Source: Caenorhabditis elegans (Eukaryota; Nematoda; Chromadorea; Rhabditida; Rhabditidae). Taken from it: a DNA stretch of 64,000 nt. Positions 13,168 to 36,500 of this stretch are shown here, in pieces (the stretch's first letter is position 1; every line of letters starts with the position of its first letter). The position numbers were made by a program, and so were the translations under genes. The notes under the pieces are model-generated. The model saw nothing but the letters and a program-made list of their open reading frames with translations, was not told where the DNA came from and ran no database searches. Location: contig NC_003279.8 of assembly GCF_000002985.6 (NCBI RefSeq), forward strand, positions 11,284,001 to 11,348,000, written 5' to 3'.

Positions 13168-15280
13168 ATTCTGCTGAGAGAAATGAAGACCCTCCCGAGA
13201 TGGTTCACGCACCCAAATTTATATTCATATTCTCTCCCCTACCCCGGGATCCCGCCCCACCTCTTCACCTTGAGCCCCCCGATACTCTTGTAATCGAGAA
13301 GAAGAAAAAGAAGGAGAAGGTTCTGAAGTTTTGAAGGTTGATTGATGGACAATTGGACAGTTTATTTTATAAAGTTTTGGGGTTTTTTTGAGGTTGTAAT
13401 CGGTTGGCAAAAACGGGGGAAGAAGTGTGTCTAGGCTAATGGGAACAGGTCACATTAGCATATTGCGCATTGGATTATCATCTTTGACTAGGTAAGAGGG
13501 ATTGGCTGGAAATTGGCTTTTGGGATCGGTATATGAATTTTTTTCGAAAAAAAATTCTAATATCTATTGCAAATTTTATATATTTTTTTATAAAAAAATT
13601 AAAGAAAAAATAACAGTTGAGAAGAACGTTTCCCAGAAAATTCCTGATATATATTTTTAAGTTTTAGCATCTTAAACGCAATTTCGAAATTGATTTTAAA
13701 CCAGAATTCTAGAATTTTCTAATTCTAGTAGAATAAAAAACAATTTTCAAAAGTATTGATGATTACAGAAAAACATTTGATTGAAAAATTCCAAAAAACT
13801 ATATTTTCAAAGAATTTTCAAGTTTTTAGATGAACCCTTGAAGAACAATTGCTGGAAAATTGTTTAAGCTATCGGGTTGAAATTCTTTCAAAAATAATTT
13901 TTATCCAGGTTTTCCGCCGATGCACAATTTTTTCGTTTCTGCCAAAATTGCCTTTTCGATGCACACCATGTTCAAAATCTATTCATTTTCTAAAAATTCG
14001 CCTAACTGCAAAATTTCCAGATTCGATGCACCATGTTTCCCAGACTGCCGGCAACTTGACCCAAATTCCCGAGACTTTCCAGAACAAATTGAACTTCCTG
14101 AACCCTAACCTATGTTCCAGTGTGAACCCTGTATCCCCTTCTTAATGTTTCACTACCCCCCATATTTTACAGGACCCCCCCCCCCCCTGGAGACGGTGTC
14201 TCGTACTTATCCTTGAAGTGTGCGGCGTGATGGGTAAAGTAAACATAACATGTGTCCTTCGTGTAAGGAGAGAAGAGACGACTCATAAATATGATGATGA
14301 CACTAATTCTTCAAATTGAGAAGAAACGAGAGTAGGTCAGACCAGGTGTATGAGAAGAAGGAAAAGTTGCAAGATATCCCGGAAGAAAGTGTTTGGACAA
14401 CATACTTTCAATTTTGCATACTTGTTATGAATTACTGGCAAATATGGGTTTTAGGGATCAAAAAATTGAATGGCTGGGTAAAAAATGACCTGGAAATGGG
14501 CTAGATTACTGCTGTGAATACTATTTAAATGGGTACCTCTGACTGTAATCTCAGGAACGAGCACAGTTAGTGTATTTTTTGTTAATTTTCTGAAAGAACA
14601 CAGTTAAAAACCTTGCAATTAATCTAAATAATCTGTGGATGTAGGTTTACTTGGAAATTTTTTCAAATTTTCAAATTTTATCAAGATTTTTTGATTTAGT
14701 ACTAAATTTCATCGATTTCTTTTTGGTTTTTCAAATAATCAAGCATGCTTTAAACACAATTTCAGTGAGTTAATTGTAATTTGTTGCCACTACGTTGAAT
14801 AAATTAATTCGACACATTTGTAAAATGTCGGACGAAAAAAATAATTTTTTGGAAAATTTTCTCAAACAAAAGGGTTTTAAAAACCCCTAAATTTCAATCT
14901 TGATGAAACTATGTGAAATTAGTTAATTGATATGTTTTCCGTATCAGAAACCTATTTAAAATCTATGATTGCTACTGAGAACTTCAAAATATACAAGTAA
15001 ACATAGCGTTTTTTTTAAGTTTACAATAGTTTTACATACGAAAGCTGCTAGAAAAAACAGAACGTTTTATAGGAAAAATTCCAAAAACCTTGCCATAAAT
15101 TTTACTGTCAGCATATATTATACTTTGCAAAACTAATAAGGTTCTGAAGTTACGACAGTTTTGGTCAGAGGTGCGACACAGGGCTTAACATGACAGGTGA
15201 ATTCAAAAATAAGTGCTCTAGTTAGGTTTGAATGCCATGTTGCGGTAGTCGTATTCATCATTCAGATTTCTAAACTGCCA
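13168..15280. other. Intergenic region without a confident gene
   Basis: The left end is the ZP gene promoter; TATATTC-like AT sequence lies about 45-60 bp upstream of its ATG. A run of 14 C occurs near 14173. I see no exon pattern between 13300 and 14550. The right part (14560-15190) is a dispersed repeat listed separately. Confidence 0.5.
14560..15190. repeat. Long dispersed repeat, uninterrupted copy (Rep-X)
   Basis: Contains GTTAATTTTCTGAAAGAACA, AACCTTGCAATTAAT, CTGTGGAT, TTTTCAAATAATCAAGCATG, ATATGTTTTCC(G)TATCAGAAACC and a terminal GGTTCTGAAGTTACGACAG...AGAGGTGCGACA. The same word order flanks the mariner at 53915-54210 / 55454-55745. It also occurs in diverged form in the arms at 15960-16370 and 17665-18075. 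Confidence 0.8.
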
Positions 15281-15561: not shown

Positions 15562-15750
15562 TTATTCTGTTTTTTTTAGTTTAGGAATCTGGTTTTTTAG
15601 ATTCAAAAAATAAAATAATTTTCCGTCCTTGGAGAGTAATTTGGCATGCTTCTCGCATTCTTTATCACTAATTGCAAAAACGTCATCTTTAGAGGAAAGT
15701 CGAATGAAAGGCATCGAAGAAAAAGAAATGATTTGAAATGCGCTTGTCAT
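15562..15750 (-). pseudogene. Third copy of the calpain-like N-terminal exon
   Basis: From the ATG at 15750 (minus strand) the first 39 codons (TSAFQIISFSSMPFIRLSS...DKECEKHAKLL) match the first exon of the calpain-like copies at 18286 (+) and 27053 (-). The matching sequence ends at about 15637. From there the reading continues into unrelated SKDGKLFYFLNLKN and a stop at 15562, where the other copies have a GTGAGT donor. No further calpain exon follows on this strand. It is therefore a stranded, truncated exon created by the inner palindrome. Confidence 0.7.
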
Positions 15751-18398
15751 GTGGAAATCAAATTCGATAAAATTTCACGGTGACATTTAATATTTTTTTT
15801 TTTTTAATTTTTAACGAATTGAATTATTTTTTAATTTAAAAGCTCACAGTACCCTAGAACGGGGTTCACGAGGCAGTTCTTCCTTCTTTTTATCATTAGA
15901 GCTAAGTTTCATTCGAACTGCAAAGTTCACGGTAGCACAGAAACTAAATGGCCACGTTCATGATACTCCGTCTGAAAACATATATTTAATTTTTTGAAAT
16001 TATCAGTAACAATCATAGATTTTAAATGTGTTTCTGATATGGAAAACATACCAATAACCTAAATTCATAAAGTTTTTATCAAAATTGAAATTTAAATTGT
16101 TTTTTCTTTTTTTTGTTGAGAAAATTGACTTATGTATTTAATTTTTGTCCGAATTTGTTCACATGTGTCAAATTAAATTATTTAACGTTGTGGCAACACA
16201 TTTCTCACAGAAGTTGTGCTTAAAGCATGCTAGATGATTTGAAAAATCAAAAAGAAATCAATGAAATTCAATACATATCAAACTATATTGACAAAATTAA
16301 AAATTTCTAAATAAAACTATATCCACAGATTTGTTAGGTTTCCTACTTCAGAAAATTTACTAACAAAAATAATTAATTGCGCCCGTTTCTGAGATTACGT
16401 CCAGTGCGGCAATCTTGTTGTACTGAAACTCAAATTTTCTCCGATTTTTATTATGAAAAATTTTTTAGAATTCATGAGGAACCCGGTTTATTACATAATT
16501 TTCTTCTTCGTTTCCTCCGCGTCCCAAAACAATGGCAGCGGCAAAAAATAGAAGAGACCAGTTTTGCATTAAGAAAGGTAGTCCAAATAACGGTCAAGCC
16601 AATAAAACGGAGCAAATGCAAAACGGGATACGGTGTACTGAAATGATAAGGACCCAAAATAAACATGAAGTGAATATCTTTTCTCACCTCCAGTTTAACA
16701 TTACATTTCGTCTTCCAATATTCACAATAAAATCCACCCACAATGTGCCGGGACTTTGGAGAGATTGTCTCAAATTGTAAGAAACATTTGCTGATGTAGT
16801 ACCTATTTGGACTACCTTTCCATTTTTTCTGGATCCAGGCGCATACTTTGTTGTATGTGTGTATCTCCGTACCGATCGCAAATTTAGTCTAGACTGTGTA
16901 ATTCGAAGGTATATTAGTATATTATACAAAAGCTTCTACTTCAATAAATAATTCAGCCCTACCAAGATGAACCATATGAAATTTGATTTTGTCCCCAAAC
17001 CAAGAGAGTTCTACACAAATAGTCTACATGAAGCTTTTGTCAAGTATGGAAAAGCCGAGAAGTTTGAAAATGAGCAATTGATATTCTATACTTGGGAATT
17101 TTCGAGTAATCATGGTATCATGTTCATGGTTGAAAATCATATGAATAGGTTTGTCAGTGTCAAGTGAGTTAGAGTTAGTTCATTGCAATTTCCCACTATT
17201 TGAAATTTCAGAGGAAGTCAAGATGAGACCGGGTACGAGATCAGCCAATGTTTCTTACAATTTGAGACAATCTCTCCAAAGTCCCGGCACATTGTGGGTG
17301 GATTTTATTGTGAATATTGGAAGACGAAATGTAATGTTAAACTGGAGGTGAGAAAAGATATTCACTTCATGTTTATTTTGGGTCCTTATCATTTCAGTAC
17401 ACCGTATCCCGTTTTGCATTTGCTCCGTTTTATTGGCTTGACCGTTATTTGGACTACCTTTCTTAATGCAAAACTGGTCTCTTCTATTTTTTGCCGCTGC
17501 CATTGTTTTGGGACGCGGAGGAAACGAAGAAGAAAATTATGTAATAAACCGGGTTCCTCATGAATTCTAAAAAATTTTTCATAATAAAAATCGGAGAAAA
17601 TTTGAGTTTCAGTACAACAAGATTGCCGCACTGGACGTAATCTCAGAAACGGGCGCAATTAATTATTTTTGTTAGTAAATTTTCTGAAGTAGGAAACCTA
17701 ACAAATCTGTGGATATAGTTTTATTTAGAAATTTTTAATTTTGTCAATATAGTTTGATATGTATTGAATTTCATTGATTTCTTTTTGATTTTTCAAATCA
17801 TCTAGCATGCTTTAAGCACAACTTCTGTGAGAAATGTGTTGCCACAACGTTAAATAATTTAATTTGACACATGTGAACAAATTCGGACAAAAATTAAATA
17901 CATAAGTCAATTTTCTCAACAAAAAAAAGAAAAAACAATTTAAATTTCAATTTTGATAAAAACTTTATGAATTTAGGTTATTGGTATGTTTTCCATATCA
18001 GAAACACATTTAAAATCTATGATTGTTACTGATAATTTCAAAAAATTAAATATATGTTTTCAGACGGAGTATCATGAACGTGGCCATTTAGTTTCTGTGC
18101 TACCGTGAACTTTGCAGTTCGAATGAAACTTAGCTCTAATGATAAAAAGAAGGAAGAACTGCCTCGTGAACCCCGTTCTAGGGTACTGTGAGCTTTTAAA
18201 TTAAAAAATAATTCAATTCGTTAAAAATTAAAAAAAAAAAAAATATTAAATGTCACCGTGAAATTTTATCGAATTTGATTTCCACATGACAAGCGCATTT
18301 CAAATCATTTCTTTTTCTTCGATGCCTTTCATTCGACTTTCCTCTAAAGATGACGTTTTTGCAATTAGTGATAAAGAATGCGAGAAGCATGCTAAATT
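15637..18398. repeat. Inner palindrome A/A' (two arms of about 1.16 kb, 442-bp spacer)
   Basis: Bases 15637-16796 are the reverse complement of 17239-18398; paired coordinates sum to about 34035. The spacer is 16797-17238. The arms carry an exon of the calpain C-terminal-like gene, a Rep-X copy and the calpain N-terminal exon. Translations of the paired segments are identical over 89 codons (16377-16646 versus 17389-17658), so the arms are nearly identical. Confidence 0.93.
16967..17466 (+). CDS. Short gene or 3' exons resembling a calpain C-terminal (domain III-like) region
   Basis: Exons 16967-17163, 17212-17347 and 17398-17466 (TAA) give 133 residues with closed phases. TTCAG at 16951-16955 directly upstream could be a cis acceptor of a longer gene or a trans-splice site. 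Key stretch: FMVENHMNRFVSVKGSQDETGY...FETISPKSRHIVGGFYC. The 'VENH...SP-SR-I' order resembles the calpain domain III/C2-like fold ('..PPxSRQvl..'). With calpain N-terminal exons on both sides, I infer it is the 3' end of a calpain-family gene whose 5' part was lost or rearranged. The last two exons are duplicated in inverted orientation in arm A (16377-16796). A standalone nematode-specific protein is possible. Confidence 0.45.
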
Positions 18399-18433
18399 AC
18401 TAAAGTGAGTTTTTGTTGTAACAATTTTTGTAT

Positions 18434-19021
18434 AGGGCTGGAAATCCGCTTGCCATGCTTGACAAAATGGCAATTGCCGAAATTGCCGATTGCCGAAAGC
18501 TCACAAAACCGGCAATTGCCGGAACTAGCGAAATTGCCGGAAATATATATTTGATTTTTTTTGTAGTTTTAGGAGCTCAAACATGCATTTTACTGAACAA
18601 TGTTCTTTTTTTAAACTCAAAATGGTTTAAACCTATAAGGATTGACCGTTTTCTTTTAGAAAATTACTAACCGAAAATTAAAAATCAAGGTGAAATTTTT
18701 TTCAATTTCCGATATATATATACCAGCCGTGGGTATTCCATACAGTATTCCTACCGTAATACTATTGTAAAAACTACAGTACCCCGACTCACTATTCCTC
18801 CAGAAGCCAAAGCTTCACCGACTACAAAAACTACATAGACTATAAACTATGGACACACAGAATAAGCGCTTTATATATAGTAAATGATTTATATATTTAG
18901 GTTTGAAAATTGCCGGAAATGTACGGCGATCGGCAATTCCGGCAATTTCGGCAATTGCCGGAATCGCCGAAATTGCCGAAATTGCCGATTGCCGGAAATT
19001 TCCGATTGCCGCGTACCTCTG
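18434..19021. mobile_element. GGCAATTGCCGG-rich MITE (hAT-like ends) in calpain intron 1, copy 1
   Basis: Starts AGGGCTGGAAATCCGC and ends GATTGCCGCGTACCTCTG. Both ends are clusters of AATTGCCGG/CGGCAATT words forming inverted repeats, with a 350-bp AT-rich middle. The structure resembles other non-autonomous hAT elements with 'GGCAATCGGC' subterminal repeats. Boundaries are approximate. Confidence 0.6.
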
Positions 19022-19081
19022 TTTTGATTTTTTGATGCGCATGCATTTTAAAGGATTAAAGGACGATCCGTTCTTCAAGTG

Positions 19082-19290
19082 CTATGCACTGCGGATCTGG
19101 GATTCAGGTACACTGCCTGGTGGTGATCCCTCTGGGCTGTAATTTAAGCCACGTCCTAGCCGGGGACTGTGGCCGATAATCCAGTCGTGGATTGCTCCAC
19201 TTCCCAATAGAGGCTGGGTGAACCTAGTGGGTGAGGCCGGACTTGAACTCGTGACCTCCAGACTGCTAGCGGCCACCACTACCGACTCAT
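19082..19290 (-). mobile_element. tRNA-derived SINE-like repeat, copy 1
   Basis: On the minus strand GAGTCGGTAGTGGTGGCCGC (box A-like) is followed about 30 bases later by GAGTTCAAGTCCGGCC, a near-consensus RNA polymerase III box B. About 150 bp of GC-rich tail follows. This spacing and orientation suggest a tRNA-derived SINE. The GC content is far above the surrounding intron. An identical inverted copy is at 26049-26257. Confidence 0.5.
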
Positions 19291-20078
19291 GTATACCTTG
19301 ACTAACTCAATTTCTACAGAAAAGACAACAAAGTATTCATCGACCCAACTTTCCCTCTAGACGACACTTCATTAGGATTTGAGCAGCCAGTTCAGAAGAA
19401 CGGAACACCTAAGCTTTCTTGGAAACCACCACAACATTTTGCCAACCACTACAACCGAAGATCTTCTGAAGACACGTGACACATCTGGCGAGATCCACAT
19501 CCATTTCCCGCGTACCAAGGAAATGAAGGAGACTGCTGGCTGTTCAGTTGCCTGGCGACTATTATAAATAGAAAAGAGCTGCTTGAGCAGATAATACCAA
19601 AGAGATGGTATACATTATCTCACGGAATTGTGCAGATTAGGTTTACTTTTTTTTTGGATTTGAAAATGTCATTCAAGTGGTTTCAGATTGTTGGCCGATG
19701 GAGAGTGGAAAATTATTAAAACTGATTTTCATTTGCCAATGAACAAGCAATCAATTGAAGAATACGCGTGGATGATTGGCAAACAGACATGGGCTGCTTT
19801 CATTGAAAAAGGATTTGCTAAACTCTTTGGAAGTTACAAGTCACTTTCTGCTAAACCTATAGACGTCGCGTTTAGAAAACTCACAGGTATGTTACAAAAG
19901 TAAGACTTCTGTTCAGGCCAAGGGTGCGCGACAATCAGCAATTTCCAATCATTGAAAACTTTGGTAGTTTTTTTACTTTCGCTATATTTCGAAATTTTTA
20001 AAGTTCAACCTTGGCATAATTCGTCATTTTAGCATTCTGTAGAACATTTTCTCACAAAAATAACAATTATATCGAAGT

Positions 20079-20292
20079 TTCACGGCCCGGCAAGCCGTAC
20101 TCGTGCACAATTTGTCTACCGTACTCCCGGATGTCTTTATGCGTGTTTCTCAAAAACGGCACCTTCATTTTTTTTTAATTTGAAAAACAAAATGACCAAA
20201 AGAAATCTATAATAACTCGCGTCTCAACCAGGTTATGCTTTGTGGTCGGTAGAGCGCGTTTACACTGGTGTACGCTTTGCCGGGCCGTGGCT
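20079..20292. repeat. CGGCCCGGCAAGCCG palindromic element, copy 1
   Basis: Inverted ends CACGGCCCGGCAAGCCGTAC and GTACGCTTTGCCGGGCCGTG enclose about 170 bp containing GCGTGTTTCTCAAAAACGG. It lies in the intron between the third and fourth calpain exons and looks like a MITE or palindromic repeat. Confidence 0.7.
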
Positions 20293-21358
20293 GCGCAGCT
20301 GTGAAAATTCTCCTAGCGAATTCAAATCTTCTTTCCCGCCTTTTCTAGTGCGATGGAGCGATTGGTCGAGCTGAATACACATGATTATGAGCGTGGCCAT
20401 TTACACAGTTTTGCAGTTATAACAAGTTATGCAGACATAATTCGTGAATTTTTCGTGAATTTTATACAGGAGCCTTTTCAAAAAATTATGAGCTACGAAG
20501 TTTCAAAAATTGTGATGCCGTTTGGGACATGATTGTTGAAGCCCAGTGAGTTTACTAAAATTATTTCGAAGCACAATTCCGAAGGGGTTTTCAGCTTGGC
20601 TGGATTTTTACTGTGTACATCCAAACTATCTCTAGATGAAGAGAGTGCCGAATACATATTTAACTCGACTGGCATAAAGCAAAATCATGCGTACGCGATT
20701 CTAAATTCAGTTGTGTTTGAAAACCACAGACTCGTTCAAATTGGCAACACTCATGCGTGCGACAAATGGAAAGAGTTACATAAGGAATGGAATTCCCTAC
20801 ATTATTTTTATAATAGTAAGTTGAAGTTTGCATTTGAGTTTGTAGAATTTTTATTCAGAATTTTCTTCCAAACTACCGAGACGCCCATATATCAGTCATT
20901 TGGATGATATGAGTTTTTGGATGGATATTGATCAATACTGCGAGCATTTTAGTAGTCTTACTGTATGTGAATATCGGAAGGATTGGAAAGAAATTCGCTT
21001 CAGACAGACTAATGATTTGAAACAAAGTCGAGAAACTGAGTATGCGTGGAGTTTGCACTGAAAACATAATTAATTCGTATTTTTTAAGGGCTTTGCGAAT
21101 GACTGTTGATAGAAGATGTGAGTTAGTCGTTGAGGTGACTGATCGAGTACTTGCAAAGATTTGGGTTACAAGGAACAGAGACACCGAAGTGAGTTTTGTA
21201 AAACAAGACGTGAAATAAGGGGTAGGCAAAATGTTTAATTTCCGAATAAATAAACTCACAAGGCCTTTTAAACTTTTGACTGATTCGGGAACCCGGCAAT
21301 TCACCAAAAATCAAATGCCAAACGACGAATTGCGCCCACATCTAATGGTAATGTGCAC

Positions 21359-21412
21359 CAGGGCTGAGCAGTCGCCCAAAAAAATCGATTGCCGATCGCC
21401 GATCGGCGATCG
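21359..21412 (+). mobile_element. Extra copy of the hAT 5' end
   Basis: CAGGGCTGAGCAGTCGCCC followed by GATCGCCGATCGGCGATCGG. It sits immediately after ATGTGCAC (21351-21358), the target duplication of the hAT element. The same end, lacking its first four bases, recurs at 21759, and an inverted copy ends at 23980. Confidence 0.85.
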
Positions 21413-21499
21413 GCGTTCGTCTATATTTTTATATTGAAAAAAAAAACCAATTTTAAGAGCTATTTTAACGTGTTATTTATAAAAACAATAACCGATCTA

Positions 21500-21758
21500 T
21501 GATGGCCACTGGTCCCGTTGGAGGACTCTACGAGGAGGAGTGCCACAAGGTGCAGTATCCAGCCCATCCTTGTTTTCATTCTACACGCGGAACACCCCCA
21601 CGGGAAACGATGTTGAGATCATCCAGTATGCTGACGACACGTCGATGATTGTACATGACAAGTCTCTGCACAATGCCGCAACAACAGCCCAAGCTCATCT
21701 GGAAATCTTAAAGGACTACTACGAGGAGCGCAAGCTGACGATCTCTGCAACCAAATCC
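21500..21758 (+). pseudogene. LINE reverse transcriptase fragment (inverted-duplicate copy)
   Basis: Encodes PQGAVSSPSLFSFYT and IQYADDTSMIV, the (V)PQG and YADD motifs of a non-LTR retrotransposon reverse transcriptase (palm). The reading stops at 21758, where arm B ends and the hAT sequence begins. It is the mirror of 23581-23839 and has no endonuclease or upstream RT blocks. Confidence 0.85.
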
Positions 21759-23043
21759 GCTGAGCAGTCGCCCAAAAAAATCGATTGCCGATCGCCGATC
21801 GGCGATCGGCGATCCAATATTAGCCGAATAGAAAATCATCATCTGAGTCACTGTTTCCTTCAGCATCTTCGTATCCATCCTCTCCTTTCTTTTTTGCATC
21901 ATGTTCTTTCTTTTCCGTATTCACTCGTTTTCTATATCTTTTGTTCATCAGAGGAATGTTTTTACTCAAAAAACAGAGCATATTGAATCTCTCAGGGCTC
22001 AACGACTTCCTATATTTTGACAGAATTTGCCCAGCTCCGGAGAAAAACCGCTCAACTTCAGCACTTCCTGGTGGGCAAATGAAGAATTGGGCAGCGAATT
22101 TTGCCAAACGTGGACAAGCTGATTTATTCAACGGATCTGTCCAAAACTCATAGGGAGGCGTGACTTCATCGTCGCACGCGAGATAGCGTTCCAATTCCTT
22201 AAAAAAAACTATTTAATAGAATTCCACAATTTTCACTCACGATTTGAACTGTTCAAGCGTCTTCTGAAACCGATATACTTTTCTTAGCTTCTTCCAGCTT
22301 TTCCTGAAAATAATTCTAAAAATCTATTCAATTGGATACCAAGTACCTGCATAAATGTTTTGAAATCAAATTCCGGTTTTTTTGCGACCGGCTCGCACGA
22401 ATTGTCGCTTATAGTGGATCTTTTAAGAGTTTTTTGATTCGGTTTATCCGGATTCGAGCCCCAATTCTTTTCAACAGCACTGATTAAACCAATTTTGTCT
22501 TGATTCGTAGAGCAGGTAGTCTGAAAATTGTAAATTTGAATGAAATATTAAAATCGCAGTTTATTGAAGAATTCCCAAACGATTGAGCAACTCATCTGAA
22601 TATTATGTAATTAAAAATTAAACTCTTCTGAAAATTAAAAAAAAACGAGACGAAACGCCAGAAAATTGCGCAGAAATATGCACAGAAATCTGATGGGTGT
22701 CAACGAGCGATGGGGCGCACTGGCATCATCTCAGATTTTTTTTCGGTCAAAACACCTTTCCGTTTTTTTGTTTGGTAAGGAACGAAAAAATTAACATTTA
22801 CTCAAAAAAAAAATTAAAAACAACAAAACAATCGTTAAAAAAAACATGAGATTTTAAAAATCGAGATGAATTTATTGAAAAATTCCATCGGCGATCGGCG
22901 ATCGCCGATGAATTTTTTTTCTTCGGCGATCGCCGATCGCCGAGTTCTCTTTTTCCCATCGGCGATCGGAGATCGCCGATCGCCGAAAATTCACTAAAAT
23001 TGCCGATCGCCGATCGCCGATCGCCGATTGCCGCTCACCCCTG
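21759..23043 (-). mobile_element. hAT-family DNA transposon, partial
   Basis: Subterminal repeats of GATCGCCGATCGGCG are present at both ends (21780-21812 and 22888-23035). The right terminus is GCTCACCCCTG at 23033-23043. This matches the left terminus CAGGGCTGAGC (complete at 21359). ATGTGCAC follows at 23044-23051 and precedes 21359, giving the 8-bp duplication expected for hAT. At 21759 the element restarts without its first four bases. It encodes a C-terminal transposase segment (next entry). Confidence 0.88.
21820..22530 (-). pseudogene. hAT transposase, C-terminal dimerisation domain
   Basis: The clear reading frame is 22194 down to 21820: ERYLACDDEVTPPYEFW, ACPRLAKFAAQFFICPPGSA, EVERFFSGAGQIL, RFNMLCFLSKNIPL. 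This is the hATC dimerisation domain: FW, LA-A-F-CPP-SA, ER-FS-AG, L-L--N. It is followed by a basic/acidic tail to the stop. Probable upstream exons continue on the minus strand to about 22530 (SISDNSCEPVAKKPEFDFKTF region) with acceptor-like TTTTCAG. The DDE catalytic region and zinc finger are absent from the 1.3-kb element, so it cannot be autonomous. Confidence 0.8.
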
Positions 23044-23130
23044 ATGTGCACCAGGGATGGTTTCACCCGTGGCCCGCTCGCCCGTTTTTTTTTTTGGATT
23101 TTACGGGTGAAAAACATCCTTGATGTGCAC
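23044..23130. mobile_element. 71-bp hAT-like MITE flanked by the same 8-bp duplication
   Basis: ATGTGCAC (23044-23051), then CAGGGATGGTTTCACCC at 23052, a short pyrimidine-rich middle, GGGTGAAAAACATCCTTG ending at 23122, and ATGTGCAC again (23123-23130). The termini are 17-18 bp inverted repeats. Confidence 0.85.
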
Positions 23131-23200
23131 ACATGCTGTCAAACTGAATATTGGAGAAAAAAGTACGACTATTTTGTTCCCCATGAAATAAATTTCAGAT
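23131..23200 (+). pseudogene. Probable 3' end of the disrupted calpain exon
   Basis: If the two transposons and their duplications are mentally removed, the frame reaching ATGGTAATGTGCAC at 21358 continues here as HAVKLNIGEKSTTILFPMK and then a stop at about 23189. TTTCAG follows at 23193-23198. This continuity supports these bases being the original continuation of copy 1, separated by the insertions. A LINE in the opposite orientation starts right after. Confidence 0.5.
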
Positions 23201-23842
23201 TGACATGTTCATTAATGTTCATCGTGGTGCGGAGGATGGCTCGATAAGGTACCTCGATTTTGTTCCAGCTGCTGTCACTAACGAGTTGGGCCCAGGCGGG
23301 GGAAGCATACGTGGCGACGGGTTTGACGATGGCATTGAAGGTTTTCAATAGGAGCTCCTTTGAGCATCCCCAGTCGGTTCCTGAGAGCGCTTTCATCAAG
23401 TTGTTGAGTTTGGACAGCTTCTTCCTAAGTGCATCTCTGTGAGCACGCATGCAGAGCATGGTGTCAAGGTGGACTCCTAGTAGTTTGGTCTCATTCGTTG
23501 TCGGGGATGCTGACTTGTCCCCAGTGTAGATCCGGGTTAACTTTGAATTCTTTCGTGTCGGCCGTGAAAACAGTGCACGTGGATTTGGTTGCAGAGATCG
23601 TCAGCTTGCGCTCCTCGTAGTAGTCCTTTAAGATTTCCAGATGAGCTTGGGCTGTTGTTGCGGCATTGTGCAGAGACTTGTCATGTACAATCATCGACGT
23701 GTCGTCAGCATACTGGATGATCTCAACATCGTTTCCCGTGGGGGTGTTCCGCGTGTAGAATGAAAACAAGGATGGGCTGGATACTGCACCTTGTGGCACT
23801 CCTCCTCGTAGAGTCCTCCAACGGGACCAGTGGCCATCATAG
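23200..23842 (-). pseudogene. LINE reverse transcriptase 3' fragment
   Basis: On the minus strand from about 23842: PQGAVSSPSLFSFYT, IQYADDTSMIV, LEILKDYYEERKLTISATKS, and after the arm boundary TCTVFTADTKEF, LLGVHLDTMLCMRAH, YASPAWAQLV. This is the RT palm, the thumb and the connected C-terminal region of a non-LTR element. It shows one frame change near 23490. No endonuclease or tail is visible. The clade is not assigned. Confidence 0.85.
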
Positions 23843-23925
23843 ATCGGTTATTGTTTTTATAAATAACACGTTAAAATAGCTCTTAAAATTGGTTTTTTTT
23901 TTCAATATAAAAATATAGACGAACG

Positions 23926-23980
23926 CCGATCGCCGATCGGCGATCGGCAATCGATTTTTTTGGGCGACTGCTCAGCCCTG
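23926..23980 (-). mobile_element. Inverted copy of the hAT 5' end
   Basis: Mirror of 21359-21412. It ends CTGCTCAGCCCTG at 23980, followed by GTGCACAT, the reverse of the target duplication. Confidence 0.85.
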
Positions 23981-25046
23981 GTGCACATTACCATTAGATG
24001 TGGGCGCAATTCGTCGTTTGGCATTTGATTTTTGGTGAATTGCCGGGTTCCCGAATCAGTCAAAAGTTTAAAAGGCCTTGTGAGTTTATTTATTCGGAAA
24101 TTAAACATTTTGCCTACCCCTTATTTCACGTCTTGTTTTACAAAACTCACTTCGGTGTCTCTGTTCCTTGTAACCCAAATCTTTGCAAGTACTCGATCAG
24201 TCACCTCAACGACTAACTCACATCTTCTATCAACAGTCATTCGCAAAGCCCTTAAAAAATACGAATTAATTATGTTTTCAGTGCAAACTCCACGCATACT
24301 CAGTTTCTCGACTTTGTTTCAAATCATTAGTCTGTCTGAAGCGAATTTCTTTCCAATCCTTCCGATATTCACATACAGTAAGACTACTAAAATGCTCGCA
24401 GTATTGATCAATATCCATCCAAAAACTCATATCATCCAAATGACTGATATATGGGCGTCTCGGTAGTTTGGAAGAAAATTCTGAATAAAAATTCTACAAA
24501 CTCAAATGCAAACTTCAACTTACTATTATAAAAATAATGTAGGGAATTCCATTCCTTATGTAACTCTTTCCATTTGTCGCACGCATGAGTGTTGCCAATT
24601 TGAACGAGTCTGTGGTTTTCAAACACAACTGAATTTAGAATCGCGTACGCATGATTTTGCTTTATGCCAGTCGAGTTAAATATGTATTCGGCACTCTCTT
24701 CATCTAGAGATAGTTTGGATGTACACAGTAAAAATCCAGCCAAGCTGAAAACCCCTTCGGAATTGTGCTTCGAAATAATTTTAGTAAACTCACTGGGCTT
24801 CAACAATCATGTCCCAAACGGCATCACAATTTTTGAAACTTCGTAGCTCATAATTTTTTGAAAAGGCTCCTGTATAAAATTCACGAAAAATTCACGAATT
24901 ATGTCTGCATAACTTGTTATAACTGCAAAACTGTGTAAATGGCCACGCTCATAATCATGTGTATTCAGCTCGACCAATCGCTCCATCGCACTAGAAAAGG
25001 CGGGAAAGAAGATTTGAATTCGCTAGGAGAATTTTCACAGCTGCGC

Positions 25047-25260
25047 AGCCACGGCCCGGCAAAGCGTACACCAGTGTAAACGCGCTCTACCGACCACAAA
25101 GCATAACCTGGTTGAGACGCGAGTTATTATAGATTTCTTTTGGTCATTTTGTTTTTCAAATTAAAAAAAAATGAAGGTGCCGTTTTTGAGAAACACGCAT
25201 AAAGACATCCGGGAGTACGGTAGACAAATTGTGCACGAGTACGGCTTGCCGGGCCGTGAA
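25047..25260. repeat. CGGCCCGGCAAGCCG palindromic element, copy 2
   Basis: Mirror of 20079-20292 within arm B'. Confidence 0.7.
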
Positions 25261-26048
25261 ACTTCGATATAATTGTTATTTTTGTGAGAAAATGTTCTAC
25301 AGAATGCTAAAATGACGAATTATGCCAAGGTTGAACTTTAAAAATTTCGAAATATAGCGAAAGTAAAAAAACTACCAAAGTTTTCAATGATTGGAAATTG
25401 CTGATTGTCGCGCACCCTTGGCCTGAACAGAAGTCTTACTTTTGTAACATACCTGTGAGTTTTCTAAACGCGACGTCTATAGGTTTAGCAGAAAGTGACT
25501 TGTAACTTCCAAAGAGTTTAGCAAATCCTTTTTCAATGAAAGCAGCCCATGTCTGTTTGCCAATCATCCACGCGTATTCTTCAATTGATTGCTTGTTCAT
25601 TGGCAAATGAAAATCAGTTTTAATAATTTTCCACTCTCCATCGGCCAACAATCTGAAACCACTTGAATGACATTTTCAAATCCAAAAAAAAAGTAAACCT
25701 AATCTGCACAATTCCGTGAGATAATGTATACCATCTCTTTGGTATTATCTGCTCAAGCAGCTCTTTTCTATTTATAATAGTCGCCAGGCAACTGAACAGC
25801 CAGCAGTCTCCTTCATTTCCTTGGTACGCGGGAAATGGATGTGGATCTCGCCAGATGTGTCACGTGTCTTCAGAAGATCTTCGGTTGTAGTGGTTGGCAA
25901 AATGTTGTGGTGGTTTCCAAGAAAGCTTAGGTGTTCCGTTCTTCTGAACTGGCTGCTCAAATCCTAATGAAGTGTCGTCTAGAGGGAAAGTTGGGTCGAT
26001 GAATACTTTGTTGTCTTTTCTGTAGAAATTGAGTTAGTCAAGGTATAC

Positions 26049-26257
26049 ATGAGTCGGTAGTGGTGGCCGCTAGCAGTCTGGAGGTCACGAGTTCAAGTCC
26101 GGCCTCACCCACTAGGTTCACCCAGCCTCTATTGGGAAGTGGAGCAATCCACGACTGGATTATCGGCCACAGTCCCCGGCTAGGACGTGGCTTAAATTAC
26201 AGCCCAGAGGGATCACCACCAGGCAGTGTACCTGAATCCCAGATCCGCAGTGCATAG
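26049..26257 (+). mobile_element. tRNA-derived SINE-like repeat, copy 2
   Basis: Mirror of 19082-19290. Here the box A-like and box B-like sequences (GAGTTCAAGTCCGGCC at about 26090) read on the plus strand. Confidence 0.5.
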
Positions 26258-26317
26258 CACTTGAAGAACGGATCGTCCTTTAATCCTTTAAAATGCATGC
26301 GCATCAAAAAATCAAAA

Positions 26318-26905
26318 CAGAGGTACGCGGCAATCGGAAATTTCCGGCAATCGGCAATTTCGGCAATTTCGGCGATTCCGGCAATTGCCGAAATTGCCGG
26401 AATTGCCGATCGCCGTACATTTCCGGCAATTTTCAAACCTAAATATATAAATCATTTACTATATATAAAGCGCTTATTCTGTGTGTCCATAGTTTATAGT
26501 CTATGTAGTTTTTGTAGTCGGTGAAGCTTTGGCTTCTGGAGGAATAGTGAGTCGGGGTACTGTAGTTTTTACAATAGTATTACGGTAGGAATACTGTATG
26601 GAATACCCACGGCTGGTATATATATATCGGAAATTGAAAAAAATTTCACCTTGATTTTTAATTTTCGGTTAGTAATTTTCTAAAAGAAAACGGTCAATCC
26701 TTATAGGTTTAAACCATTTTGAGTTTAAAAAAAGAACATTGTTCAGTAAAATGCATGTTTGAGCTCCTAAAACTACAAAAAAAATCAAATATATATTTCC
26801 GGCAATTTCGCTAGTTCCGGCAATTGCCGGTTTTGTGAGCTTTCGGCAATCGGCAATTTCGGCAATTGCCATTTTGTCAAGCATGGCAAGCGGATTTCCA
26901 GCCCT
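26318..26905. mobile_element. GGCAATTGCCGG-rich MITE, copy 2
   Basis: Mirror of 18434-19021 within arm B'. Confidence 0.6.
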
Positions 26906-27204
26906 ATACAAAAATTGTTACAACAAAAACTCACTTTAGTAATTTAGCATGCTTCTCGCATTCTTTATCACTAATTGCAAAAACGTCATCTTTAGAGGAA
27001 AGTCGAATGAAAGGCATCGAAGAAAAAGAAATGATTTGAAATGCGCTTGTCATGTGGAAATCAAATTCGATAAAATTTCACGGTGACATTTAATATTTTT
27101 TTTTTTTAATTTTTAACGAATTGAATGATTTTTTAATTCAATAGCTCATCTTGCCCTAGAACGGGGTTTACGTGGCAATTCTTCCATCTTTATCGTAAAA
27201 ATTT

Positions 27205-27820: not shown

Positions 27821-30800
27821 TTAATCATGACGTTGGAATGACTCTTCGGCGCCTCGCTCGATCTGATATCTCATCATTTCCGAGATCTTTTGTGCTCGCT
27901 CTTCGGCTTCTTCCTTCTCTTTCTCAATTTCCAGCAGGCGCCGCTCCTCGGCTTCTGCGTCGCGGAGCCGTTGGGCTTCTGGAAAAAGCGGGAAATTTCA
28001 GATTCTGAAAGCTTTCAAGAGCATATATGCTTACCCAGATCCTTCAGCCGCTTCTCCTCTTCTCGCTTGACTCTCGAAACGATTGCGGCGATGAGTGCGG
28101 CTCCACGGCCTGAGCCATCACCGGTTTGGACGATTTTGAACTGCAAAAAAAAAAGATTGGTTACTGTATATACCGTTAGTTAGAACTAGCTGAAAACTCT
28201 GCAGGGTTACTGTAGCTACAGTAATCTATGCCACATTTGAAGCTCCTCGGTCAATATACAGTAACCCACACCTATAGCAGGTTATAGCTCCTAAAAGCTA
28301 CAATAACGTACAGTAATCTTCGGGGTATCCGGAGCTTTGTCAATCTACAGTAACCAATGTTAGACTACAGTATCCCCGCTGTTGCCCAATTTTGGCGGGA
28401 ATTTAAATTTTCTGATACCAAAGTTTTTGGAGGAAGTTCAAATTTTTTGAGAAAATATTTTTTGACAGGAAATTTTAATTTTCTGAACTTTCAACCCAAC
28501 TACAGTAATCTACAGTATCAACAAGTTCACTTCGGCTGCATCATTTTATAGTTACAGTAACCTGGCCTATACTGGCCTACAGTACTCCTGCCCTACAGTA
28601 ACCTACAGTAACCCAGGCATATAGTAGGATAAAGTACTTATAAGCTATAGTAATCTACAGTACCCCTATTCTAGAGTGACCTACAGTAACCTACAGAGAA
28701 TCGAAGGATTCCAATCGAGCTATAGTAACCCACCGTAACCCGTAGCCGCTAGCTACAGAACCCATATGCTACAGTAACCTACAGTATCCTCGACATTCCG
28801 CTAAAGCTACAGTACCCCTGCTCTAGAATGACCTACAGTACCCTTGTCCTAGAGTGACCTACAGTACCCCTGTCCTAGAATGACCTACAGTATGCCTGTG
28901 ACCTACAGTACCCCTGCCCTAGAATGACCTACAGTACCCTTGTCCTAGAGTGACCTACAGTACCCCTGTCCTAGAATGACCTACAGTATGCCTGTGACCT
29001 ACAGTACCCCTGCCCTAGAATGACCTACAGTACCCTTGTCCTAGAGTGACCTACAGTACCCCTGTCCTAGAATGACCTACAGTATGCCTGTGACCTACAG
29101 TACCCCTGCCCTAGAGTGACCTACAGTACCCTTGTCCTAGAGTGACCTACAGTATTCCTGCCCTACACTGCCTGCCCTAGTAGCCAGAGGATCGAAGCTT
29201 TTCAGTCTAGCTACAGTAACCAACCGTAACCCGTGGTTTGCCGCTAGCTACAGTACCCATATACTACAGTAACCCCACCTTTTTCAATCTAACTAGAGTA
29301 AAGTTTGGCGGGAAAATCAAATTTTCGGAAACTTCCATCTCAACTACAGTAACCCTATAGAAACCCCACATCAAGCCCAGGATCCAGAAGTTCTCGAATC
29401 TTCTCGCACACCCAATGATTGAAGAATGGATGGTATTTATACGTGGATCCATCGATTGCAACGAGCATATTCGGCCGGCGGACACGATTCAGGACACACG
29501 CGATTGCTGGAAAAAAAATTGGGGGCTTAAAATCTGGAATTTTAGCTGAAAAATGCAATTTTCAAGCTAAAAATCCCTTAAAAAACCGAAAATCTCAAAA
29601 TTTTTTCAGCGGAAAAATGCAATTTTTAAGCTAAAAATCACGAAAAAAACCGCAATTTTTAGGCTAAAAATCACTAAAAAACTGCAATTTTTAGGATAAA
29701 AATCACTAAAAAACTGCAATTTTTAGGCTAAAAATCACTTAAAAAACTGCAATTTTTAGTCTAAAAATCACTAAACAACTGCAATTTTTAGGCTAAAAAT
29801 CACTAAACAACTGCAATTTTTAGGCTAAAAATCACTAAAAAACTGCAATTTTTAGGATAAAAATCACTAAAAAACTGCAATCTTTAGGCTAAAAATCACT
29901 AAAAAACTGCAATTTTTAGGATAAAAATCACTAAACAACCGCAATTTTTAGGATAAAAATCACTAAACAACCGCAATTTTTAGGATAAAAATCACTAAAC
30001 AACCGCAATTTTTAGGCTAAAAATCACTAAAAAACTGCAATTTTTAGGCTAAAAATCACTTAAAAAACTGCAATTTTTAGTCTAAAAATCACTAAACAAC
30101 TGCAATTTTTAGGCTAAAAATCACTAAACAACTGCAATTTTTAGGCTAAAAATCACTAAAAAACTGCAATTTTTAGGATAAAAATCACTAAAAAACTGCA
30201 ATTTTTAGGATAAAAATCACTAAACAACCGCAATTTTTAGGATAAAAATCACTAAAAAACTGCAATTTTTAGGATAAAAATCACTAAAAAACTGCAATTT
30301 TTAGTCTAAAAATCACTAAAAAACTGCAATTTTTAGTCTAAAAATCACTAAACAACTGCAATTTTTAGGCTAAAAATCACTAAAAAACTGCAATTTTTAG
30401 GATAAAAATCACTAAAAAACTGCAATTTTTAGGCTAAAAATCACTTAAAAAACTGCAATTTTTAGGCTAAAAATCACGAAAAAATTGTAATTTTTAAGCA
30501 AAAAATCACAAAAAAACCGCAATTTTTAAGCTAAAAATCACGAAAAAACTGCAATTTTTAGGCTAAAAATCACTTAAAAAACCGCAATTTTTAAGCTGAA
30601 AATCACAAAAAAAACTGCAATTTTTAGGATAAAAATCAGTAAAAAACTGCAATTTTTAGGCTAAAAATCACTTAAAAAACTGCAATTTTTAGGCTAAAAA
30701 TCACGAAAAAATTGTAATTTTTAAGCAAAAAATCACGAAAAAACTGCAATTTTTAGGATAAAAATCACTAAACAACCGCAATTTTTAGGCTAAAAATCAC

Positions 30801-33533
30801 TAAAAAACTGCAATTTTTAGGATAAAAATCACTAAAAAACTGCAATTTTTAGGCTAAAAATCACTTAAAAAACTGCAATTTTTAGTCTAAAAATCACGAA
30901 AAAACCGCAATTTTTAAGCTAAAAATCACGAAAAAACAGCAATTTTTAAGCTGAAAATCACAAAAAAAAACTGCAATTTTTAAGCTAAAAATCACTAAAA
31001 AACTGCATTTTTTAAGCTAAAATCACTAAAAAACTGCAATTTTTAGGATAAAAATCACTAAAAAACCGCAATTTTTAAGCTGAAAATCACAAAAAAAAAC
31101 TGCAATTTTTAAGCTAAAAATCACTAAAAAACTGCATTTTTTAAGCTAAAAATCACTAAAAAACTGCAATTTTTAGGATAAAAATCACTAAAAATCGCCA
31201 ATTCCAGTACCTGCAGCCGCCAAATTCGCACTCCGCCTCGACACAACGACACAAACTTCACGGAGCAGAAGCATATCGCTAAAAGTGGCTCCTTCGATGC
31301 CGAGCTCGTCCATGATCTGTCGGGTATTACTGTAGACACCGCAATCGTCGCTGAAAATGCAAAAAAAAGTAGTTTTTATCGATTTTTTCCACAAAATTTG
31401 ACCATTTTATTACATTTTAGACGTATTTTTTCAAGGGAAAAGCTCTGAAAAAAATGTGTTAAAATTTCGATTTTTTGGCCATTTTTGACTGAAAAAAAAA
31501 CCCCAAATTTTTACAAATTTTTAAGTCGGAAAAAGTCGTAAAAAATGATTTTTCCGGGGGTAAAACGCTGAAAATTAAAGTTTTTCCGTAAAAAACACGA
31601 TTTTTTACCAAGAATTCATCAAAAAAATCGGAAAAACCCCCATTTTTACCCTAAAATTATCGATTTTTTTCAGCAAAAACCGCCTGAAACTCACTGCAAA
31701 ATTTCGGAAATATATTTCGTCGGAAACGTATTTCGAGTACGGAGCATTTTCGAGCCAATTCCATTAAAGAGCACTTTATTCTCACAGAGTCGCTCCAAAA
31801 CCAGACGGACGAGCTCTCCCATGCACATTCCGGCGATTAGCTTGTCGAGACTGAAAATTTTGGGTTTTATGAGGGTTTTTGGGCTGAAAATCGGGCTTTT
31901 TTCGCTTAAATACTGAAAATTTTATTTAAAAACTGCAAAAACCGCCATTTTTTGTTAAGAATGCAAATATTCCCCAAATTTTTTTTCGGTGGCCGAGTTT
32001 CATCTTTCACGGCCACGATTGTTGGAAATTAATCGATTTTTATTGATTTTTTGCCTGATTATAGGTGAAAATTCCATTTAAAATGTGCAAAAAATCAGAA
32101 ATTTTCCAGATTTTTTCGGTGGCCGAGTTTTCTCTTTCTCGGCCATCAACGAAAATTTGTGGAAAAAAGATTTTTATTGATTTTTTGGCTGAAAATCAGG
32201 AATTTATGCTTAAAATACTGAAAATTCCATTTAAAATGTGCAAAAAATCAGAAATTTTCCAGATTTTTTCGGTGGCCGAGTTTTCTCTTTCTCGGCCATC
32301 AACGAAAATTTGTGGAAAAAAGATTTTTATTGATTTTTTGGCTGAAAATCAGGAATTTATGCTTAAAATACTGAAAATTCCATTAAAAAACTGCAAAAAA
32401 TCAGAAATTTTCCAATTTTTTTCGGTGGCCGAGTTTTATCTTTCTCGGCCATCAATGAAAATTTATGAAAAATCAATCAATTTTTATTGATTTTATCAAA
32501 TAAAAAATACGAAATTTCACCCTACAAACTCGAAAGAAACCTATTTTTGTTAGAAATTCAAATTTTTTCCAAATTTTTTCGGTGGCCGAGTTTTCTCTTT
32601 CTCGGCCATCAATGAAAATTGATAAAAATCGATCAATTTTCGCTGTTTTTATCGATTTTTCCATTGAAAATATTGAAAATTCCATTGAAGATCTGCAAAA
32701 ATTCAGAAATTTTCCAGATTTTTTCGCTGGCCGAGTTTTTTTCTTTCGCGGCCATCAACGAAAATTGAAATTTTACAGATTTTTATCAATTTTTCGAATA
32801 AAAAAACTGAAATGTCCTTTTAAAACCTGCAAACCCTCAATGTTTTCTTAAAAATTCAAATATTGTCCACATTTTTTCGGTGGCCGAGTTTTCTCTTTCG
32901 CGGCCATCAATGAAAATTGGTGGAAATAAATCAATTTTTATCGATTTTTCACTAAAAGTAGTGCAAATTGCATAAAAAACTGCAAAAAATTTGATTTTCA
33001 AAGATTTTTTACGCCGAAAAAACCAAAAAACCTACGAATTAACGCCAGGATGATCGGATTTTGAGTCAACAATTTTATCATATCTTGTGAAAATATAATC
33101 AGCTTCTCCATTATCACCAAATCCTCCCCATTCCGTATCGATTATCATCTGAAAACATAAAAAATTGCACTTTTTTCCGGAAAAATTAGAGAAAAATCGA
33201 AAATTTTTGACTGAAAAGTTGATTTTTTTCGAAAAATTGCAATATTTTAGTGATTTTTTATCTGAAAATTGTCGAAAAAAAATCGATTTTTTCTCAAATT
33301 TTCGCCAAAAATGTCGATTTTTTGTACCGATTTATGATTATAATCCTCCGTAGCGTTGGCCAATCCGTGCACAATCTTCCTGGAATCTTCCATATATGAA
33401 GCATTTGTTCCGGTTCCAATAATTACGCCAATATCACAGTGACCGCCTGCAAAAAACGGCGTGTTTTCAGAGGTTTGTAGAGGAAAAATCTTGATTTTTG
33501 GGCTATTTTTACTAGGTAAACTGTATACATAAA

Positions 33534-33585
<52 letters not shown>

Positions 33586-36500
33586 TATATGTATACTATA
33601 AATATATTGTATAGTATGTAGTATGTATACAGTGCGTCCAACTTCTATAGCACCCATCTCTAATTTGGCGGTTTGGAGCTTTTCAAAATATTTTCAGGAA
33701 AAGTGTTAGTGCAGTTCGATAGCAAATGTTGAAAAACCTATGCTCCCCAATTATTATTATGATATCTTAAAAATCACGGAAATTAGGTCAAAATATCGGA
33801 AAAATGGCCGTCCAACTTCTATAGCAACTTTCTATCCCCCTCTGATTTTTGACAATTTCCGGTAAAATCGGGGGTTTCTTTGTTATTCATGAATTTATTT
33901 TGTGAATAACTTCACACCAAAATGATCAGACGGTTTCACTTTTACATTTAAAAAATAAATATACCACTTGAAAACACGTGGAATGCCTGTGATTGTCCTG
34001 GAACGTTCTTATTTGCTTCAGAGGCCATATCTCGGCTCCCAATCGGTTTCGCAACACCAAACTTTATCAAAATGTTCTTCTCCGTCTAGTTATTACTATG
34101 TAATTAGTTGTAGAGAACATTCATTCATATTAACCAAATGGAAAAGGGAGTAACTGCAGTGATTTTTAGAAGGCTTGATTTAACTCTGGAAACGAGCGTT
34201 TGGAGGCGCAGAGATAATGATTGAGAATACATTTTCGACAAAAAATTACTAAATTATAACAAAAATTGAAAATTATATTATATGAACATCAAATCCGTGG
34301 AAATCCATGGATAAATCAAATGCCAGACTAATTGTCGCATGTTAGCTTGAGAAAACTACTTGCGGCCTCGCTTTGCCTTTGTCCTCTTTTTTGAGCGGTC
34401 TCGTGAACTCGTCTAAATAAAATTTCAAAGACTTCTAATCAAAATCGAAGCTTCAAAGATATTTAAATCATATGAGCTGAAATTCTATACCATACAAAGT
34501 CAAAACCTTCAGCTCTGCGCCTTCAAACGCTCGTTTCCAGAGTTAAATCAAGCCTTCTAAAAATCACTGCAGTTACTCCCTTTTCCATTTGGTTAATATG
34601 AATGAATGTTCTCTACAACTAATTACATAGTAATAACTAGACGGAGAAGAACATTTTGATAAAGTTTGGTGTTGCGAAACCGATTGGGAGCCGAGATATG
34701 GCCTCTGAAGCAAATAAGAACGTTCCAGGACAATCACAGGCATTCCACGTGTTTTCAAGTGGTATATTTATTTTTTAAATGTAAAAGTGAAACCGTCTGA
34801 TCATTTTGGTGTGAAGTTATTCACAAAATAAATTCATGAATAACAAAGAAACCCCCGATTTTACCGGAAATTGTCAAAAATCAGAGGGGGATAGAAAGTT
34901 GCTATAGAAGTTGGACGGCCATTTTTCCGATATTTTGACCTAATTTCCGTGATTTTTAAGATATCATAATAATAATTGGGGAGCATAGGTTTTTCAACAT
35001 TTGCTATCGAACTGCACTAACACTTTTCCTGAAAATATTTTGAAAAGCTCCAAACCGCCAAATTAGAGATGGGTGCTATAGAAGTTGGACGCACTGTATA
35101 TATATATATAGTATATAAATATGTATATACTATAGAAATTATATATGTATATATACTATATAAACTATATATAGTATATATACATATATAATTTCTATAG
35201 TATATACAAATTTAAATACTATAAATATACTATATATAAAAAACTCGGCCAGCGAAAAAATCTGAAAATTTCTGATTTTTTGCAGATTTTAAATGAAATT
35301 TTTACTTTTTTCAGCGGAAAAATCGATAAAAACAGCGAAAATTGATCGATTTTTATCAATTTTCATTGATGGCCGAGAAAGAGAAAACTCGGCCACCAAA
35401 AAAATTTGGAAATTCCCATTTTTGCAAATTTTTTAAAATATACATACTACATACTATACAATTTATTAATAGTATACATATATATATACTAAATAAACTA
35501 TATACATGCATACTACATACTGTATAATATATATATATATATGAAAATTCGATGATTTTTGGCCTAAAACTGAGAAATTCTGGTATATATATATATACAT
35601 TAGAAAAACGTTTTCAGAGATTTTTTGGCTTTTTAAGTAGATTTTTGCACACAAAACATTACAATTTCTCAGTTTTAGGCCAAAAATCATTGAATTTTCC
35701 TAATTTTCAGCTCATTTTCAACCGGAAAAAAGGTTACAAACCAGCTTCATATGCAGCTGCAACCATTGTACCAACTGTATCATTAATCAATGCAACTATA
35801 TTCACTTTAACACGTCCATCACGTGCAATCGCATCTTCTAACAGTTGTACGACGTCTTCGCCCACGCATCCTGTCGCTGTTACTCCTTTTGTCCATCTGT
35901 GAAAATGCCCTCTTTTTTTTTGTTGAATTTTTGGGTCCCACCACGCGATTTGTGGGTTACTGTACCTGAGCAGCGTGGCCGATCGGAGCCCGGTTTGATC
36001 GCAGGGATACGAGAAAGTGAATCCAACAGGCAAATGCTCATCGGCGAGCTCACGTTCGACAAGAAAATCGCACAGAGCTTTGGCAATGTAGTCGAAAAGC
36101 TGAAAACATTTTTTTGGAATTTTCTGGAAAATCAGGAAATTTAGGCTAATTTTAGCGATTTTTTTAAAATTTTTAGGTGAAAATTCAGTGAAAAGCGGGA
36201 AAAAATTAGTTTTTCATGCGAAAAATTAAAAAATTAAAAGGTTTTCCGGCTTAAAATGCAAACTTTTCCCCAGTTTTCAGGCTGAAAATCTCGAATTTTT
36301 AGATTTTTGAGGTCGAAAACAAGACATTTTCAGGTTTTTCTGTATGAAAACCACCAAATTTTCCGGGTTTTCCGGCTGAAATTTATGAAATTTCAGGGTT
36401 TTCTTATTGAAAATCGCGAAATTTTCAGCTTTTTACGCGTAAAAAGTCCAATTTCTCAGACTTTTTAGGCTAAAAAACTAAAATTTTCCGGTGGGGGGCT

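Follow-up and report, generated by a model that had tools for sequence, protein, structure and literature searches.

Introduction

Long near-perfect inverted repeats that carry paralogous genes are known in Caenorhabditis elegans, some of them 100% identical, and gene conversion has been named as one mechanism (passages of PMC1803023). The inverted pairs F44E5.4/F44E5.5 and the hsp-16 locus, as described there, are adjoining inverted genes, up to 100% identical including their non-coding DNA, with a short spacer, and conversion was proposed for them. Here we analyse a stretch of 64,000 nucleotides (nt) of the C. elegans reference genome (C1:11284001-11348000; hereafter the window, with position 1 as its first letter), which holds a perfect palindrome of two calpain-like genes of the same general design. 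The sequence makes it likely that an inverted duplication of a calpain-like gene, old in itself, was recently made identical again by gene conversion from one arm to the other. The locus differs from the pairs in PMC1803023 in its shared premature stop, in a spacer made of transposon pieces and in a copying direction that the sequence suggests. Furthermore, the arrangement of F44E5.4/F44E5.5 and hsp-16 is kept in other Caenorhabditis (passages of PMC1803023), whereas the present locus has been seen in one genome.

Near-identical arms kept by conversion are also a property of primate sex-chromosome palindromes (cited in PMC1803023; passages of PMC8981503 and PMC3723533), whereas the present locus lies on an autosome, is much smaller and shows no evident intact gene. 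The locus was not found in literature searches able to show it, supplements and most subscription papers lying outside their scope. All comparisons were made within one genome, the C. elegans reference, and the genome searches covered 100,286,401 bp in 7 contigs.

Identical Arms and Diverged Outer Edges

The palindrome and its outer edges are laid out as follows.

18232-21758, plus strand: left arm of the main palindrome, 0/3527 mismatches against the mirror arm
23581-27107, minus strand: right arm of the main palindrome, full complement of the left arm
18146-18227, no strand: outer edge of the left arm, homologous to that of the right arm at 87% identity
27108-27191, no strand: outer edge of the right arm, diverged homology with the left outer edge

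A base-by-base comparison found the main arms complementary at 3527/3527 positions without a gap, so that the palindrome is perfect rather than near-perfect, and the identity takes in introns and flanks. A chance origin of such a 3.5-kb inverted match is excluded. The initial annotation had placed a near-perfect palindrome at 18241-27098; the palindrome is real, its true extent is slightly longer (18232-27107) and its arms, in the self-alignment which that annotation had proposed, show no mismatch at all. Its further observations, that paired coordinates total 45339 throughout and that 1.8 kb of spacer separates the arms, agree with the ungapped alignment and with a spacer of 1822 nt (21759-23580).

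Outside the arms, the upstream DNA continues to match outward for ~82 nt with 11 mismatches (87% identity), up to a poly-A run of differing length. An anchored outward alignment of these shoulders scored 58, against a maximum of 13 in shuffled sequence (0/500). The step from identity to older homologous divergence at the outer edge of the tract is abrupt (11/82): a Fisher test of 0 mismatches in 3527 in the arms against 11 in 84 in the shoulder gave p = 5.5e-19, the recount of the shoulder being 11/82. On the left side, a dispersed repeat of ~90 nt (window 18101-18191) reaches into the outer 46 nt of the shoulder, where 8 of the mismatches lie. On the other hand, the inner 36 nt, which adjoin the arm and lie outside that repeat, have 3 mismatches (p = 9.5e-7 against the arm), and the idea that the shoulder is a dispersed repeat alone was rejected on this ground. 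Searched against the genome, the right-hand version of the shoulder matched the other two local copies along 96 nt; outside the locus it gave two pieces of 39 nt. The inner edge of the arms showed no homology, with 198/500 shuffles reaching the score, which fits an end-joined end and also the plain end of a duplication.

Mutations arise in C. elegans at 2.7e-9 per site and generation. At this rate the divergence of the shoulder corresponds to about 27 million generations, a rough dating from a short shoulder, and the absence of arm differences sets a 95% upper bound of 8.5e-4 per site, or about 157,000 generations. This contrast suggests that the mirror arrangement is old and its identity recent. 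A less likely alternative is a fresh inverted duplication, in which the entire palindrome would be no older than roughly 150,000 generations and its exit junction came to lie at the shoulder by chance or through short homology. The absence of arm differences within the bound just given fits such an event, as do the frequency of gene duplication in C. elegans (passages of PMC3213143) and the position of part of the shoulder within a dispersed repeat, which might have provided a pre-existing short homology. A recent palindrome made in one event is nevertheless disfavoured because the shoulder of the same DNA is diverged, and the part next to the arm, outside the repeat, still differs at 3/36 positions. 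The initial annotation had offered a very recent origin or maintenance by conversion; this was the right pair of options, and the 87% shoulder beside 100% arms, together with the junction described below, favours conversion over recency.

Spacer Transposons and a Probable Direction of Copying

The spacer and the adjoining ends of the arms contain pieces of transposons, including a fragment of the reverse transcriptase (RT) region of a long interspersed nuclear element (LINE).

21759-23580, no strand: spacer, composed of the greater part of a hAT DNA transposon and part of the LINE RT fragment, together with a small nested hAT-like element and ~95 nt of flanking DNA
21359-23043, no strand: hAT element with ends CAGGG and CCCTG, an 8-nt target duplication and a hAT dimerisation domain
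21351-21358, plus strand: ATGTGCAC, 8-nt target duplication bordering the hAT element on the left
23044-23051, plus strand: ATGTGCAC, 8-nt target duplication bordering the hAT element on the right
21359-21492, plus strand: left end of the hAT element inside the arm, matching the hAT relatives L051 and L052 and ending at junction J (21492/21493)
21493-21758, plus strand: LINE RT piece of 266 nt, at whose first position the match to a LINE relative starts
21759-21814, plus strand: second copy of the hAT tip, without its first 4 nt; putative end of the copied tract

The dimerisation domain (Dimer_Tnp_hAT, PF05699) was recognised with E = 1.5e-11 on an open reading frame (ORF) at 21823-22212 on the minus strand, and RVT_1, also with E = 1.5e-11, on a minus-strand ORF at 23494-23847 that extends from the spacer into the arm. 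The matching 8-nt duplications at 21351 and 23044 indicate that, on the left, gene, hAT and flank still stand in their original order. The relative L051 has the same kind of ends and an 8-nt duplication of its own. A third copy of ATGTGCAC lies at 23123-23130, with no further plus-strand copies in the window; beside the larger hAT, a small hAT-like element (23052-23122) uses the same 8-nt target, so that three copies of the 8 nt result.

In L051 and L052, the hAT stretch equivalent to the one ending here at 21492 is followed by 41 nt and then by the sequence that starts here at 21813. At the present locus, the LINE piece and the second hAT tip intervene between these two stretches. Two copies of the hAT tip thus stand on the left, at 21359 and 21759; they share a variant missing from L051 and L052 and look like two pieces of one element. 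Junction J is present in both arms, and the LINE is continuous on the right side alone: on the right it runs unbroken from 23846 to 23226 and matches the LINE relative L060 over 621 columns at 92%, whereas on the left the L060 match (21493-21758) stops after 266 nt. Because the RT is continuous over 621 columns on the right alone, the left arm most simply received junction J from the right, and the direction of copying would most simply be from right to left, after the palindrome existed. A single-step fold-back origin was rejected, since it accounts neither for the doubling of the hAT tip nor for the order in which the target duplications stand. The evidence of junction J and of the two tips also speaks against a fresh duplication, its simplest explanation being a second, later arm-to-arm copy.

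The Calpain-Like Genes

Each arm carries one calpain-like gene, for which we built a splice model by hand.

18322-21218, plus strand: calpain-like gene, left copy, 7 exons
18322-18404, 19320-19640, 19687-19886, 20470-20545, 20595-20815, 20859-21039 and 21089-21218, plus strand: exons of the left copy
24121-27017, minus strand: calpain-like gene, right mirror copy, with the same stop as the left copy

All six introns of the manual model are GT-AG, and the exons join into a single frame of 404 codons counting the final stop. Its sole defect is an in-frame TGA at 19477-19479 (codon 81), ahead of the GDCW stretch and mirrored in the right copy. With X at the stop, the spliced model matched Peptidase_C2 (PF00648) over positions 1-297 of 297 with E = 1.6e-43. 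The Pfam match and the common TGA bear out the earlier description of two mirror calpain-like genes with identical translations. No ORF for an active protease was found in either arm under this model, since the TGA precedes GDCW, and the two genes are probably a pair of pseudogenes. The paralogue at II:1.259 lacks a stop at the corresponding place and has GDCW in frame.

Genome searches gave 43 calpain matches, which were grouped into 15 places, two of them the arms. By elimination from gene counts and positions, two of the three genes clpr-2, clpr-3 and clpr-4 are candidates for the arms, although the fit is loose. The C. elegans calpain set was counted as 14 genes, and F44F1.1 was termed a pseudogene (passages of PMC3315469); one of the 15 places may be F44F1.1. 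Like the arm genes, the clpr genes in those passages are calpain-like genes outside the main clp set; they are without the catalytic cysteine, whereas the main arms retain GDCW after the stop. The strain list of the same paper puts clp-9 on chromosome I, and this gene is not clearly visible in the present grouping. In the main text of PMC3315469, as far as its passages go, the strings 'duplicat' and 'identical' are absent; passages of PMC3257289 gave no gene positions.

Intron 1 contains a dispersed repeat of ~240 nt (about 19048-19287, and its mirror) with 353 candidate places in the genome. Among the 40 of the 353 that were scored, two were the arms and the other 38 were 96-100% identical, so the repeat is a very homogeneous family. 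By eye it resembles a tRNA-derived element. ARAGORN reported 0 tRNAs and Rfam 0 matches at the gathering threshold.

The Palindrome as a Possible Source of Small RNAs

The mirror genes are convergent and their 3.5-kb arms perfect, an arrangement that would suit a hairpin locus for small interfering RNAs (siRNAs), where a read-through RNA would fold into a 3.5-kb duplex, be cut by Dicer and silence the gene itself and possibly its relatives. In addition, recently duplicated loci are silenced in C. elegans by siRNAs of the ERI-6/7 and ERGO-1 pathway (passages of PMC3213143), whose targets resemble this locus in being young duplicated or pseudogene-like loci. We nevertheless regard such a role as improbable. 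Each gene has AATAAA 27 and 31 nt past its stop codon, and a hairpin would require read-through of these poly(A) signals (21245/21249 on the left), which precede the 1.8-kb spacer, and of the spacer itself. Moreover, the two mirror mRNAs have the same sense sequence and cannot pair with each other.

The initial annotation had further suggested trans-acting siRNAs against other calpain genes, for which we found little support. We compared the arm with the 12 other calpain groups, taken as each match plus about 1.5 kb on either side and thus not always whole genes. The longest exact match was at most 17 nt in 11 of them, and one group, I:13.677, shares 24 nt (19799-19822, in exon 3). Exact matches of at least 21 nt were accordingly limited to this 24-mer among the 12 groups rather than spread over several calpain targets, and silencing of calpains in trans was rejected as the principal explanation of the locus. 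Any siRNAs from the arms would have many non-calpain targets, because the intron-1 repeat is dispersed and 96-100% identical. Note that the word 'calpain' is absent from the passages of a paper on TDP-1 and double-stranded RNA (PMC4282642).

A Second Palindrome on the Left Shoulder

At its left end the main palindrome is fused with a second one, which the initial annotation overlooked.

15635-16803, minus strand: left arm of the second palindrome, which includes upstream DNA, calpain exon 1 in its third copy and ORF Y in a truncated version (Y1)
17232-18401, plus strand: right arm of the second palindrome, which shares 18146-18401 with the main palindrome's left end
16804-17231, no strand: spacer of the second palindrome, containing the 5' exon of ORF Y2 at about 16967-17164 (plus strand)

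The perfect core of this palindrome is 996 nt (15793-16788/17247-18242). Its outer part (15635-15792) has 1 substitution and a difference in poly-A length, and its inner part has 3 mismatches within the last 15 nt. Calpain exon 1 is therefore present in three copies at the locus, all nearly identical, and the poly-A run next to them measures 14, 12 and 13 A. The smaller palindrome was probably homogenised in a similar way to the main one, leaving exon 1 nearly identical in three places. For a fresh duplication, two adjoining palindromes would both have to be new.

The three poly-A lengths also bear on an assembly artefact, in which the assembly would have mirrored a single real copy or evened out small differences between two arms. 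Reads shorter than an arm cannot be placed in one arm, and long inverted repeats are unstable in E. coli (passages of PMC1803023), so that such an error is conceivable. The sequence makes misassembly unlikely, and in our estimate highly so, because the arms join different sequences at both ends: they adjoin different outer flanks, with the diverged shoulder and the differing poly-A runs, and their inner ends differ too.

The third copy of exon 1 has no intron past the exon and shows a slight likeness to the spliced junction of exons 1 and 2. At splice offsets from -3 to +3 the scores were 6, 7, 8, 9, 10, 11 and 9, reached by 3, 2, 1, 0, 0, 1 and 0 of 200 shuffles, respectively. This hints that the third copy may descend from an older paralogue.

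ORF Y (16952-17346, plus strand), upstream of the calpain gene, has two exons with a plausible splice. A genome search at E <= 0.1 gave 4 matches, all at this locus and none elsewhere, and its two exon pieces had no Pfam match at E <= 1; as judged from these searches, it is an orphan gene or fragment. The candidate reading of ORF Y as a calpain C-terminal domain was rejected, with a best match of E = 1.7 among six calpain loci compared and no Pfam match. The arms of the second palindrome also include a dispersed repeat (about 15986-16399, with its mirror at 17636-18051), whose copies are ~70-80% identical and lie on several chromosomes; a further copy in the window is at about 14621-14992.

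Proposed Origin of the Locus

The favoured explanation, arm-to-arm copying within an older palindrome, can be put as three steps. A hAT element would first have inserted downstream of a calpain gene, leaving ATGTGCAC on both sides. A fold-back or template switch would then have produced an inverted copy of the gene together with the initial part of the hAT, joined via a LINE fragment. Much later, a break near the left hAT tip in the left copy would have been repaired from the right arm; the copied tract, ~3.5 kb long, would have taken in junction J and, past the former arm end, 266 nt of LINE, and would then have been end-joined to the hAT tip 4 nt in. Such copying would also hand both genes the same premature stop. 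The palindrome requires no function.

Double-strand-break repair after Tc1 excision in C. elegans is the subject of work cited in the reference list of PMC3966223, and a break at a transposon end is a natural start for copying; here the break may have come from hAT activity. As a fairly unlikely extension, breaks at the hAT tip beside one arm might have been repaired from the mirror arm repeatedly, with spread of the dead allele.

Several points weigh against this explanation. The shoulder is short (~82 nt), and its outer 46 nt overlap a dispersed repeat on the left side, leaving 3 of the 11 mismatches in the remaining 36 nt. Beyond the tract of the second palindrome there is weak similarity, 1/500 shuffles reaching the score at each edge, and the outer-edge score depends on 8 exact letters. 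By eye, the relative L052 has no clear 8-nt duplication and junction J no long microhomology. The third step is drawn as a single tract, and several conversions would look alike; the 4-nt offset from the hAT tip is a single observation and no proof of cutting by a transposase. Arms so alike can flip the spacer, and the sides called 'left' and 'right' may therefore have been exchanged with respect to the outer flanks. Conversion in C. elegans has been suggested to be likelier between paralogs in the same orientation (passages of PMC3966223), and the comparison covers a single genome.

Other Repeats in the Window

A third inverted repeat lies at 33524-35204, with arms of ~690 nt, 96.6% identity and a 299-nt spacer. 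It was rejected as a further gene palindrome and is a dispersed foldback-type DNA element: among the 40 of 176 candidate places that were scored, long matches elsewhere were mostly 85-97% identical. Three tandem arrays were also seen. At 57093-57333, about 40 imperfect copies (70% matches) of the 6-nt unit GCTTAG form an interstitial telomere-like tract; the telomere repeat of C. elegans is TTAGGC, of which GCTTAG is a rotated form. A minisatellite at 29613-31194 has a 32-nt unit in about 49 copies (91% matches), and a rather homogeneous tandem array at 28807-29165 has a 96-nt unit in 3.7 copies (98% matches).

Biological Meaning

Arm-to-arm copying is a known kind of event in worms, and this locus is probably a further, well-marked case. 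Perfect palindromes are usually taken as brand-new or as selected; here the sequence argues for an age, a direction of copying and an end of the copied tract. The locus also cautions against taking a perfect hairpin for an siRNA gene. Given the many sequenced wild strains of C. elegans, the locus offers a compact case on which arm-to-arm conversion can be tested. If breaks at the hAT tip do account for the copying, it would be a transposon scar, rather than selection on the genes, that keeps the palindrome perfect.

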